Below, in pieces: positions 11,909-63,934 of a stretch of 64,000 nucleotides of DNA. Location of the stretch: contig NZ_WGLO01000005.1 in NCBI RefSeq assembly GCF_016125515.1, positions 62,001 through 126,000 of the forward strand, given 5' to 3'. Below the pieces are notes generated by a model. The model searched no databases, was not told where the DNA came from, and saw nothing but the letters and a program-made list of their open reading frames with translations. The DNA is from Hyphomonas sp. GTDB taxonomy: Bacteria > Pseudomonadota > Alphaproteobacteria > Caulobacterales > Hyphomonadaceae. Within the stretch, counting starts at the first letter, position 1. Every line of letters begins with the position of its first letter. Position numbers and translations under genes: made by a program.

Positions 11909-11958
11909 CCGGCCCGCTTGCGGCGCTGCAAAATAGTCATTACACGATCCTCACGCGA

Positions 11959-12117
11959 AAGGTGCCCGGGTCAACAGCCCGGGTGAAAAGGGAAGCCGGT
12001 GGGAATCCGGCGCTATGCCCGTAACTGTCAGCGGGGAGTCTGTTGAGCCACACGCCACTGGGAAACCGGGAAGGCAGCTCGATGAGGCCCTGATCCGCTT
12101 AGCCAGGAGACCTGCCT
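11959..12117 (+). ncRNA. Cobalamin riboswitch (AdoCbl-type aptamer)
   Basis: The gap of 335 nt between the SDR gene and btuB holds a B12 aptamer. Consensus pieces are visible: the GGGAAGCCGGTG..AATCCGGCGC stem-loop at about 11991-12013, a GCCCGTAACTGTC segment at 12017-12029, the GCCACTGGGAAACCGGGAAGG arm near 12054-12074, and the B12 box AGCCAGGAGACCTGCC at 12101-12116. In known examples cobalamin binding turns off the downstream transport genes. Here it lies about 127 nt before the btuB start. Confidence 0.95.
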
Positions 12118-12160
12118 TTTGCCGTCGTGAGCTCGCCGCCCGGGACCAGGCGTTGGGCTG

Positions 12161-58237: not shown

Positions 58238-60061
58238 ATGCACGCCTATCGCACCCACACCTGCGGGGAATTGCGCAAGTCCCATGTCGGCGAAACCGTC
58301 AAGCTGTCAGGCTGGCTGCACCGCCGCCGGGACCATGGAGGGGTGATGTTCATCGACCTGCGCGACCATTACGGCCTGACGCAGATCGTGTTCAATCCGG
58401 GCTCTGCGGGCTTTGCGACGGTCGAGCGCCTGCGCGCCGAGAGCGTGATCACGGTGGAAGGCAAGGTTGTGGCCCGGGACGGGGACCTCGTGAACCCGAA
58501 CCTTGCGACCGGCGAAATTGAGGTCGTGGGCGGGGCTGTTTCGGTCCAGTCCGAGGCCGCCGAGCTGCCGATGCCGGTGTTCGGCGACCATTCCTATCCG
58601 GAAGACATCCGCCTCAAGCACCGCTACCTGGACCTGCGCCGGGAGCAGCTGCACAAGAACATGGTGCTGCGCTCCAACGTGATTGCGAGCCTGCGCCGCC
58701 GGATGGTGGCCGGGGGCTTCACCGAATACCAGACGCCCATCCTGACCGCTTCGAGCCCGGAGGGCGCGCGCGACTTCCTCGTGCCGAGCCGGATGCATCC
58801 CGGCGAGTTCTACGCCCTTCCGCAGGCGCCGCAGCAGTTCAAACAGCTCCTGATGGTGTCTGGCTTCGACCGCTACTTCCAGATTGCGCCGTGCTTCCGC
58901 GACGAGGACGCCCGCGCCGACCGCTCGCCCGGCGAGTTCTACCAGCTCGATATCGAGATGAGCTTTGTCACCCAGGAAGACGTGTTCAACGCAGTTGAGC
59001 CAGTCATGCGCGGCGTGTTCGAGGAGTTCGCCCAGTGGGACGGCAAGCAGCGCACCGTTGTGCCGGGCCCGTTTGAACATGTGCCATATGCCGAAGCGAT
59101 GCTCAAATACGGCTCCGACAAGCCGGACCTGCGCAACCCGTTGATCATCTGTGATGTCTCCGACATTGCGACCCGCGAGGACGTGACGCTGGGCGTGTTC
59201 AAGAAGATCGTCGATGGCGGCGGTATCGTGCGCGCCATTCCGGCGCCCACCACGGCAGAACAGCCCCGCAGCTTCTTCGACAAGATGGACGCCTGGGCGA
59301 AGAAGGAAATGCAGGCTCCGGGCCTGGGCTACATCCGCTTCGTGGAAGAAGACGGCAAGCTGGCCGGCACCGGACCGATCGCCAAGTTCTTTGCGCCGGA
59401 GGCGCTTGCCGCACTGGCCGCGAAGGCCGGCGTCAAAGCCGGCGACGCCCTGTTCTTCTCGGCGGGCGACAAGACCGCCGCCGTGAAGCTGGCGGGCGCC
59501 GCACGCACCCGTATCGGTGAGGAACTCGGCCTGATCGACAAGAGCATCTTCAAGCTCTGCTGGATCGTCGACTTCCCGATGTTCGAATGGGACGAAGACA
59601 ACAAGTGCGTGGACTTCAGCCACAACCCGTTCTCGATGCCGCAGGGCGGGATGGAAGCGCTGCTGGCGGCCGACACGGTCGAGAAACAGCTGGCCATCAA
59701 GGCCTACCAGTATGACATCGTCTGCAACGGCATCGAGCTGTCCTCGGGTGCCATCCGGAACCACCGTCCGGAAATCATGCTCAAGGCCTTCGAGATTGCG
59801 GGCAAAGGCCCACACGTCGTGGAAGAGAAGTTCGGCGGCATGCTGAACGCCTTCCGCTATGGCGCCCCGCCGCACGGCGGGATTGCGCCCGGCGTGGACC
59901 GGATCGTGATGCTGCTGGCCGAGGTCGACAACCTGCGCGACGTCATCCTGTTCCCGATGAACCAGCAGGCCCGCGACCTGCTGATGGGCGCCCCGAGCCC
60001 AGTCGAGGACCGTCAGCTGAAAGAGCTGAACATCCGCCTCGCGCCAGCGATCAAGAGCTGA
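58238..60061 (+). CDS. aspS: Aspartyl-tRNA synthetase
   Basis: 607-residue class IIb synthetase of the bacterial type with the large insertion domain. N-terminal anticodon-binding OB fold ([32 protein letters not shown]), motif 2 [26 protein letters not shown], and motif 3 [16 protein letters not shown]. Whether it is discriminating for tRNA-Asp or also charges tRNA-Asn cannot be told here. Confidence 0.97.
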
Positions 60062-60111: not shown

Positions 60112-60151
60112 GCAAAGAGTTAGCGGGTTCTTAATCAAGTCTTGCGAATTT

Positions 60152-60322
60152 CACGCACAGCAAGAAGCGTGCGGAAACGGTTGGTCTGGCGGTGAACGCT
60201 TGGCCGGTTCTCTCCGGCCATGCCGCTTCCTGCGAGTGTTGCCGTCAGCCCGCTGACGGGGCTTCGCTCCATCCGGCGAAGTCCGCAGACCGGGTCTGAC
60301 ATCCTGCGAACAATCTATGGAG
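60152..60322 (+). promoter_or_regulatory. Highly structured leader before the small acidic protein
   Basis: Five consecutive simple hairpins: CACGC..GCGTG (60152-60171), TGGCCGG-TTCTCT-CCGGCCA (60201-60220), CCGTCAG-CCCG-CTGACGG (60242-60259), CTTCGC..GCGAAG (60262-60281) and CAGAC-CGG-GTCTG (60286-60298). The Shine-Dalgarno GGAG follows at 60319. The octamer TCCTGCGA occurs twice, at about 60229 and 60302. I match it to no known riboswitch. Confidence 0.5.
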
Positions 60323-60329
60323 AAAGACT

Positions 60330-60665
60330 ATGTCGCAAACGTCCTACCTTCTTTCGTGTGAAGTCCTCTGCGGTGAGGGCAGCGATGGCGCCCTCGAGGG
60401 CAAAGATCGCGCCTTCCTGATCGTCGCCGTCAGCGCCGCAAGCGAAGATGATGCGATTGCCAAAGTCGAAGCCGACTTCGACGAAGAAGGCTACGCGATT
60501 GTCGAGATCGAGTGGATTGCGACGGCTGCCGACATGCAGTGGGAAGATGCGGACGGCGAAGCCGAAGCCAAGGACATCCTCGCCCGCCTCGCCGAGCTGC
60601 CGGACGAAGTCATCTACGGTATGCTGTACGATATCTCCGACGACGACATGAGCGAAGCCGCCTGA
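60330..60665 (+). CDS. Small acidic protein, hypothetical
   Basis: 111 residues, strongly acidic: many Asp and Glu (EDDAIAKVEADFDEEGYAIVEIEWIATAADM, then DADGEAEAKDILARL, DISDDDMSEAA). The periodicity suggests alternating strands and helices of a ferredoxin-like fold, but no family is recognised. GGAGA lies 8 nt before the ATG. It has its own structured leader and its own terminator, so it is a separate, probably abundant and regulated transcript. Confidence 0.8.
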   Translation: MSQTSYLLSCEVLCGEGSDGALEGKDRAFLIVAVSAASEDDAIAKVEADFDEEGYAIVEIEWIATAADMQWEDADGEAEAKDILARLAELPDEVIYGMLYDISDDDMSEAA

Positions 60666-60704: not shown

Positions 60705-60736
60705 TGCGGCCGCCTGAACAGCGGCCGCATTTTTTT
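60705..60736 (+). terminator. Intrinsic terminator
   Basis: TGCGGCCGC-CTGAACA-GCGGCCGCA followed by seven T. A strong terminator closing the acidic-protein transcript. Confidence 0.93.
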
Positions 60737-60778: not shown

Positions 60779-61531
60779 TCAGTTGGGCGCGCCGGCGAGG
60801 TTTGTCGCGAGCTGCGAGAAGGTGCACATTGGCAGGCGTTGGTTGGCGGGCAGGCGGGTCGTGAGCGAGCCGCAGGCGCCTTCGAAGTCGGCTTCGTCGA
60901 AGCCCTTCACCGATTGCAGGTTTGCGCCGGGAAAGCGGGCATCGCGGAAGGACGCGCCGGTCACGTCTGCGCCGGCCATCCGGGCGTCGGTGAAGATCGC
61001 GCCGTTGAAGATCGCGCCGCGCAGGTTGGCGCGGTCGAATACGGCGCCCGTAAAGTTGGCGGTCGACAAGTCAGCGTTTTCGAGCCGGGCGATGATCAGC
61101 TCGGCCTGTTCGAAGTTGGCGCCGACCATGACGGCGTCCTGCAGGCTGGCGCCGTGCATCAGGGCGCGGCGGAAATCGGCGCCCGAGGCTTTGATGCCCT
61201 GCAGGCGCGTGCCGGCGAACACGCCGTCCGCGAGCTTGGCATTGGTGAGGACGGCGCCGCGCATGTCAGCGCCGGTCAGATCTGCGCGCTCGAAGTTCAC
61301 GCCGACGGCCTGCACGCCGCGCATGACCGAATAGTCGAGCTTGGCTTCGGAATAGTTGGCGCCGGAGAGCGTCCAGCCGGTCAGGTTGCGGCCTGAAAGG
61401 TCGCAGGTGGCACAGGTGCCGACATAGCTGGGAGACCAGGCAACCGGCTGGCCCTGTGCGAAGGCGCCCGGTGCGGTGAAGGCGGCGAATGCACCCGCCA
61501 GTGAAAGGAGACGCAGATTCAGATTGTCCAT
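60779..61531 (-). CDS. Exported pentapeptide-repeat protein
   Basis: 250 residues. ATG 61531 gives the signal peptide LRLLSLAGAFAAFTAPGAFAQG. CATCDLSGRNLTGW opens a run of about 25 pentapeptide repeats of the A(D/N)LxX type (GANYSEAKLDYS, RADLTGADMRGAVLTNAKL, ADLSTANFTGAVFDRANLRGAIFNGAIF). These form a right-handed quadrilateral beta-helix. Two cysteine pairs, CATC near the start and C..C near the end, may form disulfides. Periplasmic role unknown; not a gyrase-protecting cytoplasmic Qnr type, because it is exported. Confidence 0.9.
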   Translation of the reverse strand: MDNLNLRLLSLAGAFAAFTAPGAFAQGQPVAWSPSYVGTCATCDLSGRNLTGWTLSGANYSEAKLDYSVMRGVQAVGVNFERADLTGADMRGAVLTNAKLADGVFAGTRLQGIKASGADFRRALMHGASLQDAVMVGANFEQAELIIARLENADLSTANFTGAVFDRANLRGAIFNGAIFTDARMAGADVTGASFRDARFPGANLQSVKGFDEADFEGACGSLTTRLPANQRLPMCTFSQLATNLAGAPN

Positions 61532-61690: not shown

Positions 61691-63934
61691 CTATTGGCTC
61701 GCCCGGCTTTCCTCTCCGCACGTGTCGCAGGCCATGTGGCCGTCGGGGCCGGCTTCGAACAGGGTGAAGCTGCCGCAGGACGGGCAGGCCTGGGACAGGT
61801 AAGTCGGTGAAAGATCTCGGGTTTCTCCGGCGGCGGGCTCCTCGGCGGCCTTTTCGGCCCGGCGGGTGCCGAGGATGACGATGTTGTCCGGCAGCTGGCC
61901 GCGCGAGAAGCCGCGCGAGATGAACTGCGCCGCTTCGCTGGTGAAGGCCGCGGTCTCGCCGCGCGTGGCGTCGCCGGCGCCGCGGCCGAGACCGTCATGT
62001 GTGACGTCAGCTTCGGCGAGGTCGTCGCGGCCCAGATAGGAAACGGCGAGTTCCCGGAAGATGTAGTCGAGGATCGAGGTGGCATTGGTGATCCGGTCGT
62101 TGCCGGTCACCGCGCCTGCCGGCTCGAACCGGGTGAACACGAAGGCGTCGGCATATTCCTCTAGCGGCACGCCGTATTGCAGGCCCAGGGAAACCGAGAT
62201 GGCGAAATTGTTCATCAGGCTGCGGAAAGCGGCGCCTTCCTTGTGCATGTCGATGAAAATCTCGCCGAGGCTGCCATCGTCGAATTCGCCGGTGTGCAGG
62301 TAGACCTTGTGGCCGCCGACCGTGGCTTTCTGGATGTAGCCCTTGCGGCGGTCCGGCAGGCGGGTGCGGCGCACGCGGGGGGCTTCCTCCGACAGGGCGG
62401 GCAGGTCGGGCAGGGCTTCGGCATCCTCGACGATCTCTTCGGCCAGCGAGACGATCTGCTCCATCCGCAGCCGCAGGTCTTCAGAAGGCGGCGCGCGGTG
62501 GCCGGTCATCAGCGCAGACAGGCCCGCCGCCATCGCGGCTTCGGCGAGTTCGAGCCCGTCGGCGGACGGCGCGCGCAGCATGCCCATGCCGCCGAGTGCT
62601 TTGGAGGTGGCGGCGGTGAAGCGGATCTCGGCATCGGCGCTGACATTCAGCGAAAGGCCAGCGGCAGCGAGGCCCTTGCCGGCGATCTCGTCGATGGCGC
62701 CGTCGATGGCGAGTTCGGCTGCCGCGATGTCTTTCTTGGAGAAGCCGACCGCAGACAGCAGCGCCTTGCCGTCGGAGTCGAAACGCTCGGGCGAGAGCTT
62801 GAGGTCGTTGATGATGATCTCGTCGCCGAGCACCCAGCGGGAGAAGGCGGCGCTCAGCGGCAGGCCGTCGCCAATGGCGCGCGTCACGCGCTCGATGGCT
62901 TCGTCGGTGAAGCCCCGGTCGCGCAGGCGGGTGCGGCCGAGGGCGGAGTCGAGGTCGTGCTCACCGGCCTGGGAGAGGCGGTCGAGCAGGGCGGGCAGGT
63001 GCTCGGGCGCGCGGCGGGCGAGGCCGAGGCGGGCGGCGCGGCTGAGGCTGGGCGCATCTTCCCCGTAGGCCAGCACGGTGCGCACCGGCGCGGCGCCTTC
63101 GCTTTCGCATTCGGGCAGCACGGCGGCCATGTCGCGCAGCGGCAGCAAGGCGAGCTGGCAGGCGCGGCGGCCGCTGGCCTTCATCGCCTCCAGGCCCAGC
63201 AGGCGGCCCTGGGCGGCGGGGAAGGCGGCGCCGGTAGCGGATGACTTGATCAGGGCAGCGAGTGCGGCGCCGACCGCGACACCGGCCTCCGAGGCATAGT
63301 CGAGCCCCAGTGACAGGACCGCAGCGCCAAGCCCGGCAACGACCAGCATGCCTTCGCCCAGATCGCGCGCGGCGGCGTCGACGGCTGCGACCAGGTAATC
63401 GGCTTCGAGCCCGCCGGGACCGATGGCCTGGGCTACATCCAGCACGCGGCAGCGGGTGCCGGCTTCGGGCAGGGCGCCGCGCATCAGGTGGATTTCGGCG
63501 CCCTCTTCCAGTGCCGCGAGCAGCGCGTCAGACAGAGCCGCGTCGATGTGGCCCGCATCGAACACGCCGGGGCGCGGCGAGGGGGTGCTGACGGCAGCGG
63601 CGCGCAGGGACGCGGCGGTCTTCAGGATGCCGCCCGGCTGGCGCAGGGCCTCTTCCAGCACGTCCTGCGGCAGGCCGGCGGCGAGGGCTTCGGCCAGTTC
63701 GGCGTTCTTTGGCGCGTCGCCCAGGCGTTCCAGCATTTCTGCGGTGGCGAGCTGGGAAACACCCAGAAGGTTCGCCGCGGACCAGGCGGCCCGGACATCG
63801 CGCAGGGCCGCGGCCGTCAGCGGCTGGGGCAGGCGCCCGGCAGAGCGCAGCACGTCCCTCAGCCGGATTTCCGGAGACAGCAAGCCGTCCGATTCGGCCG
63901 CTTCGAGTAGGTCATTCTGGGATTTCGCTGCCAT
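61691..63934 (-). CDS. NrdJ-derived TSCPD-domain protein without a recognisable RNR catalytic barrel
   Basis: 747 residues. The C-terminal third matches the end of B12-dependent ribonucleotide reductase: [79 protein letters not shown], and a zinc-type tail with CPSCGS and CDTCG. The middle part ([38 protein letters not shown]) also resembles NrdJ. The N-terminal half is Ala-rich and shows no NxCxE radical motif, so it is probably not a reductase. It is far shorter than NrdJ (about 1200 residues). An accessory or regulatory role is inference. Confidence 0.75.

Follow-up and report, generated by a model that had tools for sequence, protein, structure and literature searches.

A narrowly distributed structured mRNA leader, with a CtrA-type promoter box, of an orphan gene in Hyphomonas

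The DNA between aspS and a small orphan gene of Hyphomonas sp. was analysed and is best explained as the structured 5' UTR of that gene, which would be transcribed from its own CtrA-box promoter and whose 5' hairpin would protect the mRNA and keep the ribosome-binding site free. A probability of roughly 0.4 is attached to this reading. By comparison of homologs, the leader itself is a structured 5' mRNA leader that is new, narrowly distributed and without an Rfam entry. Coordinates refer to the window, the whole 64,000-nt stretch of DNA that was analysed.

60119-60134, +, CtrA-type box GTTAGC-N6-TTAA (minus strand TTAA-N7-CTAAC), half-sites invariant in 17 copies
60146-60151, +, probable -10 element GAATTT, with a GAATTT-like element at a fixed distance from the box in homologs
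60157-60237, +, structured 5' domain kept in homologs as a single long imperfect hairpin (covariance model R1)
60160-60169, +, P1 5' arm GCAAGAAGCG, pairs with 60224-60233
60182-60206, +, P2 hairpin, 60182-60191 pairing with 60197-60206, two pairs with compensatory changes
60224-60233, +, P1 3' arm CGCTTCCTGC, pairs with 60160-60169
60238-60303, +, variable insert holding three of the hairpins first described, of comparable length only in L003 and L004
60306-60337, +, ribosome-binding context with conserved motifs: GCGAAC 60306-60311, GGAG 60319-60322, ATG 60330, TCGCA 60333-60337
60330-60665, +, gene for the 111-aa acidic orphan protein, homologs all in Hyphomonas
60705-60736, +, intrinsic terminator, similar in homologs

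Locus, gene and terminator

The gap between aspS (58238-60061) and the orphan ORF is 268 nt. The product of the ORF is the small acidic protein of 111 residues described in the initial annotation, with a pI of about 4.05 (30 D+E versus 5 K+R) and with Cys10 and Cys14 invariant. No relative was detected in Pfam, NCBIfam or PDB. A structure model of the protein has the order beta-beta-alpha-beta-alpha (mean pLDDT 79), and fold comparison gave no significant match, so that no function was obtained from the fold. Nothing was found in support of the suggestion that the protein senses stress or metals. The terminator that had been ascribed to the gene was confirmed as a 9-pair stem (60705-60729) followed by TTTTTTT, and a comparable stem and T run was found 3' of the gene in homologs. 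A search for tRNA and tmRNA genes returned none at the leader. Downstream, a pentapeptide-repeat protein (60779-61531, minus strand) adjoins a protein of 747 aa that has TSCPD as its C-terminal domain (61691-63934, minus strand). A cobalamin riboswitch is present elsewhere in the window (11943-12133, plus strand; 111.5 bits, E 4e-27).

Promoter

The CtrA consensus of H. neptunium, TTAA-N7-TTAAC, was derived from CtrA ChIP-seq (PMC7200025). The box in the window, TTAAGAACCCGCTAAC, is one mismatch from this consensus and qualifies by sequence as a CtrA-like site. It is the only one-mismatch match in the window, in which about 0.8 such sites are expected by chance, and it is the invariance and position of the box, not its score, that point to a CtrA site. 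The box lies 154-211 nt 5' of the start codon in the 16 complete copies; in the copy on G016:C1 the start codon is at 1188994 and the box at about 1188838. GAATTT at 60146-60151 is likely the -10 element; because the GAATTT-like element keeps a fixed spacing, the box would lie at about -30 to -35 and the RNA would start near 60157-60159. Activating CtrA sites are located around the -35 position (PMC6180460), which the box fits if GAATTT is the -10 element, the start being positioned from the spacing. The gene is probably under CtrA control. Activation by CtrA from the -35 position would tie expression of the gene to a given stage of the cell cycle.

Fold and conservation of the 5' domain

The leader had first been described by five consecutive inverted repeats. 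Four packed repeats were detected by the tool used here (60198-60207/60214-60223, 60242-60249/60252-60259, 60259-60267/60276-60284 and 60286-60291/60293-60298), the last ending 21 nt 5' of the GGAG at 60319, and the fifth, a CACGC...GCGTG hairpin at 60152-60173, folds too. Missing from that description was a long-range stem of 10 nt with 90% complementarity (60160-60169/60224-60233), which is the one that relatives conserve. The five hairpins as a specific functional unit were not upheld, since three of them, at about 60240-60300, fall in the insert that is short or missing in most homologs. The loop of one lineage-specific hairpin (CTCCAT, 60267-60272) is a perfect complement of the Shine-Dalgarno sequence ATGGAG (60317-60322). 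Anti-Shine-Dalgarno pairing between the two was set aside, being available in the window and not in L003.

The window leader had a folding energy of -78.3 kcal/mol versus -66.4 +/- 4.3 kcal/mol for 200 dinucleotide shuffles (z -2.8; 2/200 as low). At full length, most homologous leaders had a stability within the usual range for their composition (z about -3.3 to +0.6), and stability alone is for this reason weak evidence. Covariance model R1, built from seven sequences with the window excluded, matched the window at 60157-60237 (57.4 bits, E 4e-14); it also recovered L003, L011, L012, L014 and L027 and, in a genome-wide search, the unseen L093. Between 12 and 18 of the 18 pairs were standard in the seven out-of-training sequences. 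Weaker matches (E > 0.05) were inspected as possible copies of the leader elsewhere and were rejected, being without the box and the gene. When 16 homologous 5' domains were folded one by one, the P1 stem recurred in 13, in the form ANCA-N-GAAGC with GCTTC-N-TGNN and with variants in L003 and L027. The model did not match L005, L006 or L008, whose 5' domain is closed by pairs other than P1.

Over 14 sequences, 92.5% of cells were paired, versus 31-42% when the partners were slid and 88.5% when the letters were shuffled. Under a conservative tree null, in which the same substitutions were placed anew along the tree across the same columns, the value was 80.7 +/- 2.8%, and none of 2000 replicates reached that observed. 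For P1 alone the corresponding count was 8/2000; P2 alone was not significant against this null. Paired columns carried 0.86 substitutions each, versus 2.1 for unpaired columns. Three pairs were changed on both sides, a count no higher than under the tree null, and the covariation is accordingly called modest; the structure of the 5' domain, as judged from these alignments, is conserved. In the comparison of homologous leaders that had been proposed with the initial annotation, pairing was thus found to be maintained with some compensatory change, in place of the lack of covariation that was to count against it. One P2 pair is G-U in 12 of the 14 sequences, which identifies the plus strand as the RNA strand.

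The predicted probability of P1 in the window was 0.07 in the full-length leader, where other pairings are preferred, versus 0.99 in the isolated domain, and P2 in the window competes with a local GGCCGG/CCGGCC hairpin (60198-60223). Co-transcriptional folding would favour the 5' domain.

Distribution and inheritance

Homologs of the protein (60-78% identity) were found in 16 of 42 Hyphomonas species, that of the window included; among 299 genomes taken as a sample of the order, no genus but Hyphomonas had one. A GTDB-wide scan for the protein returned 13 loci, several titled Hyphomonas or Hyphomonadaceae and others under unrelated MAG titles. Four of the public MAG records (L045, L048, L049 and L050) are titled Acidobacteria or Candidatus Sulfopaludibacter; these titles look wrong, because the records carry this Hyphomonas gene. 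A mobile origin was considered and rejected, the protein having not been found in the plasmid, phage and viral collections searched.

In a tree of aspS, 16 of the 17 members of one clade carry the gene, and it is missing from G012/G015/G033, the sister group, and from the rest of the tree; the exception within the clade, G029, is a 520-contig assembly. A 17th leader (L093) was found by the covariance model, without use of the protein, in G026, an incomplete MAG placed on the tree from a short aspS fragment; there the first codons of the gene lie at a contig end. All 17 copies have the CtrA-type box, the GAATTT-like -10, the structured 5' domain and an invariant GCGAAC...GTCGCA around the ribosome-binding site. 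The neighbouring genes vary between lineages, and since promoter box, leader, gene and terminator remain together while the neighbours differ, they are regarded as an autonomous transcription unit. The gene adjoins aspS in the window and in L003, and has other neighbourhoods elsewhere, with promoter, leader and terminator travelling along. In G014, the nearest to the window on the aspS tree, it lies at a location other than beside aspS.

Among representatives, mean alignment identity rose from 42% upstream of the box to 79% in the promoter; it was 61% for the 5' domain, 73% for the ribosome-binding region and 36% for a shuffled control. The comparison of homologs shows joint inheritance, within a single Hyphomonas clade, of the promoter box, the 5' domain, the ribosome-binding context, the protein and the terminator as a unit. 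The earlier view of the leader as a structured 5' region linked to the gene for the 111-aa protein is borne out across homologs, in which the region is conserved.

Ribosome-binding region

All 17 copies share an unchanged GCGAAC 5' of the GGAG and an unchanged TGTCGCA at the start codon. Codons 2-8 show little synonymous variation, with TCG and CAA invariant in 16 copies; in three neighbouring genes CAG is used 55 times versus 3 for CAA. L093 keeps TCGCA although its codon 3 is changed from Gln to His. A GCGA/TCGC stem of 4-6 bp could form here, and is invariant and without covariation; as a structure over the ribosome-binding site it was rejected, as it was not stably predicted in many homologs once more coding sequence was included. 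The constraint on codons 2-8 may possibly reflect selection against structure in the start region, an overlapping frame, or binding by an RNA or a protein.

An out-of-frame ORF beginning at an ATG/TTG that overlaps the Shine-Dalgarno sequence (60317-60360 in the window) runs for 14 codons or more without a stop in each of the 16 homologs and overlaps the stretch of low synonymous variation. Its stop positions are not conserved, and it was for this reason rejected as a leader peptide. A conserved upstream ORF or leader peptide was likewise rejected, start codons and lengths not being shared across homologs.

Proposed function and alternatives

In the proposed mechanism the leader would be a 5' UTR of about 170 nt on a monocistronic mRNA for the orphan acidic protein, transcribed from a promoter at 60119-60151. 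The 5' hairpin would start only a few nucleotides from the transcript 5' end, where it may shield the mRNA from 5'-end-dependent decay, and it would keep the folded leader clear of the conserved ribosome-binding site. We infer that the leader influences the stability of the mRNA, its translation, or both. Stabilisation of mRNA by 5'-terminal stem-loops is known, for example from the E. coli ompA 5' UTR (PMC2777011). The conserved stem that belongs to such an arrangement was found in the leader as P1, which begins about 1-3 nt 3' of the start site predicted from promoter spacing.

Among the alternatives, the leading one, tentative and distinctly less probable than the mechanism above, is that a small RNA or RNA-binding protein acting in trans recognises the 5' domain and/or GCGAAC...GGAG...TGTCGCA and switches translation on or off. 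It would account for the invariance of GCGAAC and TGTCGCA, for the retention of TCGCA in L093 despite its Gln to His change, and for the nearly frozen codons 2-8 with a CAA that is rare in neighbouring genes; selection against structure at the gene start could, however, yield the same codon pattern. The GCGA/TCGC stem, without covariation and not stably predicted, also speaks against it, as does the search of genomes for candidate CsrA, which was negative: no csrA (PF02599) match was obtained in the four genomes tested (G000, G016, G014 and G021), in which search positive controls were detected, and CsrA control of the leader was dropped. The leader might instead be a functionally unimportant transcribed GC-rich 5' UTR, whose similarity reflects recent common ancestry and whose hairpins reflect base composition. 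The narrow distribution, the full-length leaders of most homologs being no more stable than shuffles, and the position of three of the hairpins first described in the variable insert all agree with this; the upstream flank, however, is 42% identical versus 61% for the 5' domain and 73% for the ribosome-binding region, and pairing exceeds the tree null, so that an inert leader is considered unlikely.

A riboswitch that senses a ligand or ion and controls the gene is improbable. A discrete folded domain does lie 5' of one gene and is conserved in 13-14 copies, but it occurs with that one orphan gene only, has no Rfam match and no terminator, and across homologs no sequestering or alternative pairing over the ribosome-binding site was consistently predicted. 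In agreement with the initial annotation, which had recognised no known riboswitch or T-box, the leader had no Rfam match at the gathering threshold, and permissive settings gave only sub-threshold chance matches in the window and at the homologous loci. A more elaborate proposal, that a clade-specific RNA switch couples the CtrA programme to translation of the orphan, with the P1 5' arm alternating between its 3' arm and codons 8-10 and the frozen first codons forming part of the element, is given little credence; the alternative pairing with codons 8-10 had a notable predicted probability in only a few homologs. Least probable of all is that the leader yields a stand-alone small RNA by processing, as had also been suggested at the outset, or is itself such an RNA: a discrete folded domain at the predicted 5' end would suit this, but the leader lacks a terminator, and a search of 42 genomes gave no convincing copy separate from the gene. 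The initial designation as a cis-regulatory RNA holds in so far as a conserved structured leader is tied to the gene; its regulatory role is putative.

The RNA motif, the hypothesised promoter and the gene family are co-inherited in one branch of a genus of budding bacteria. CtrA ChIP-seq and RNA-seq data exist for the model H. neptunium, which is close to this branch, and the hypothesis is readily testable. The question posed is whether a young lineage-specific gene has come under cell-cycle control and acquired a structured leader. Should the RNA switch be real, one compact cassette would set both the timing of transcription and the translation of a Hyphomonas-specific protein. Should the leader be inert, it would be a warning that strong hairpins of GC-rich leaders may amount to lineage noise, as the three of five in the variable insert would illustrate.

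Comparison with known systems

Cis-regulatory leaders and riboswitches of Rfam likewise have a conserved RNA fold 5' of one gene; here no family threshold was reached, and no conserved switch or terminator is present. With the CtrA-activated promoters of Caulobacterales and Hyphomonas (PMC7200025, PMC6180460) the locus shares a full-length box, with one mismatch, which would lie near the expected -35 position if GAATTT is the -10 element; the predicted site, known here from sequence, has CTAAC where the consensus has TTAAC. The ompA-type stabilisers of E. coli (PMC2777011) differ in that the Hyphomonas leader is confined to one clade. The likeness, drawn from the predicted start site, is one of arrangement: in both, a hairpin near the 5' end (inferred here) of a monocistronic mRNA is followed by a single-stranded ribosome-binding region.
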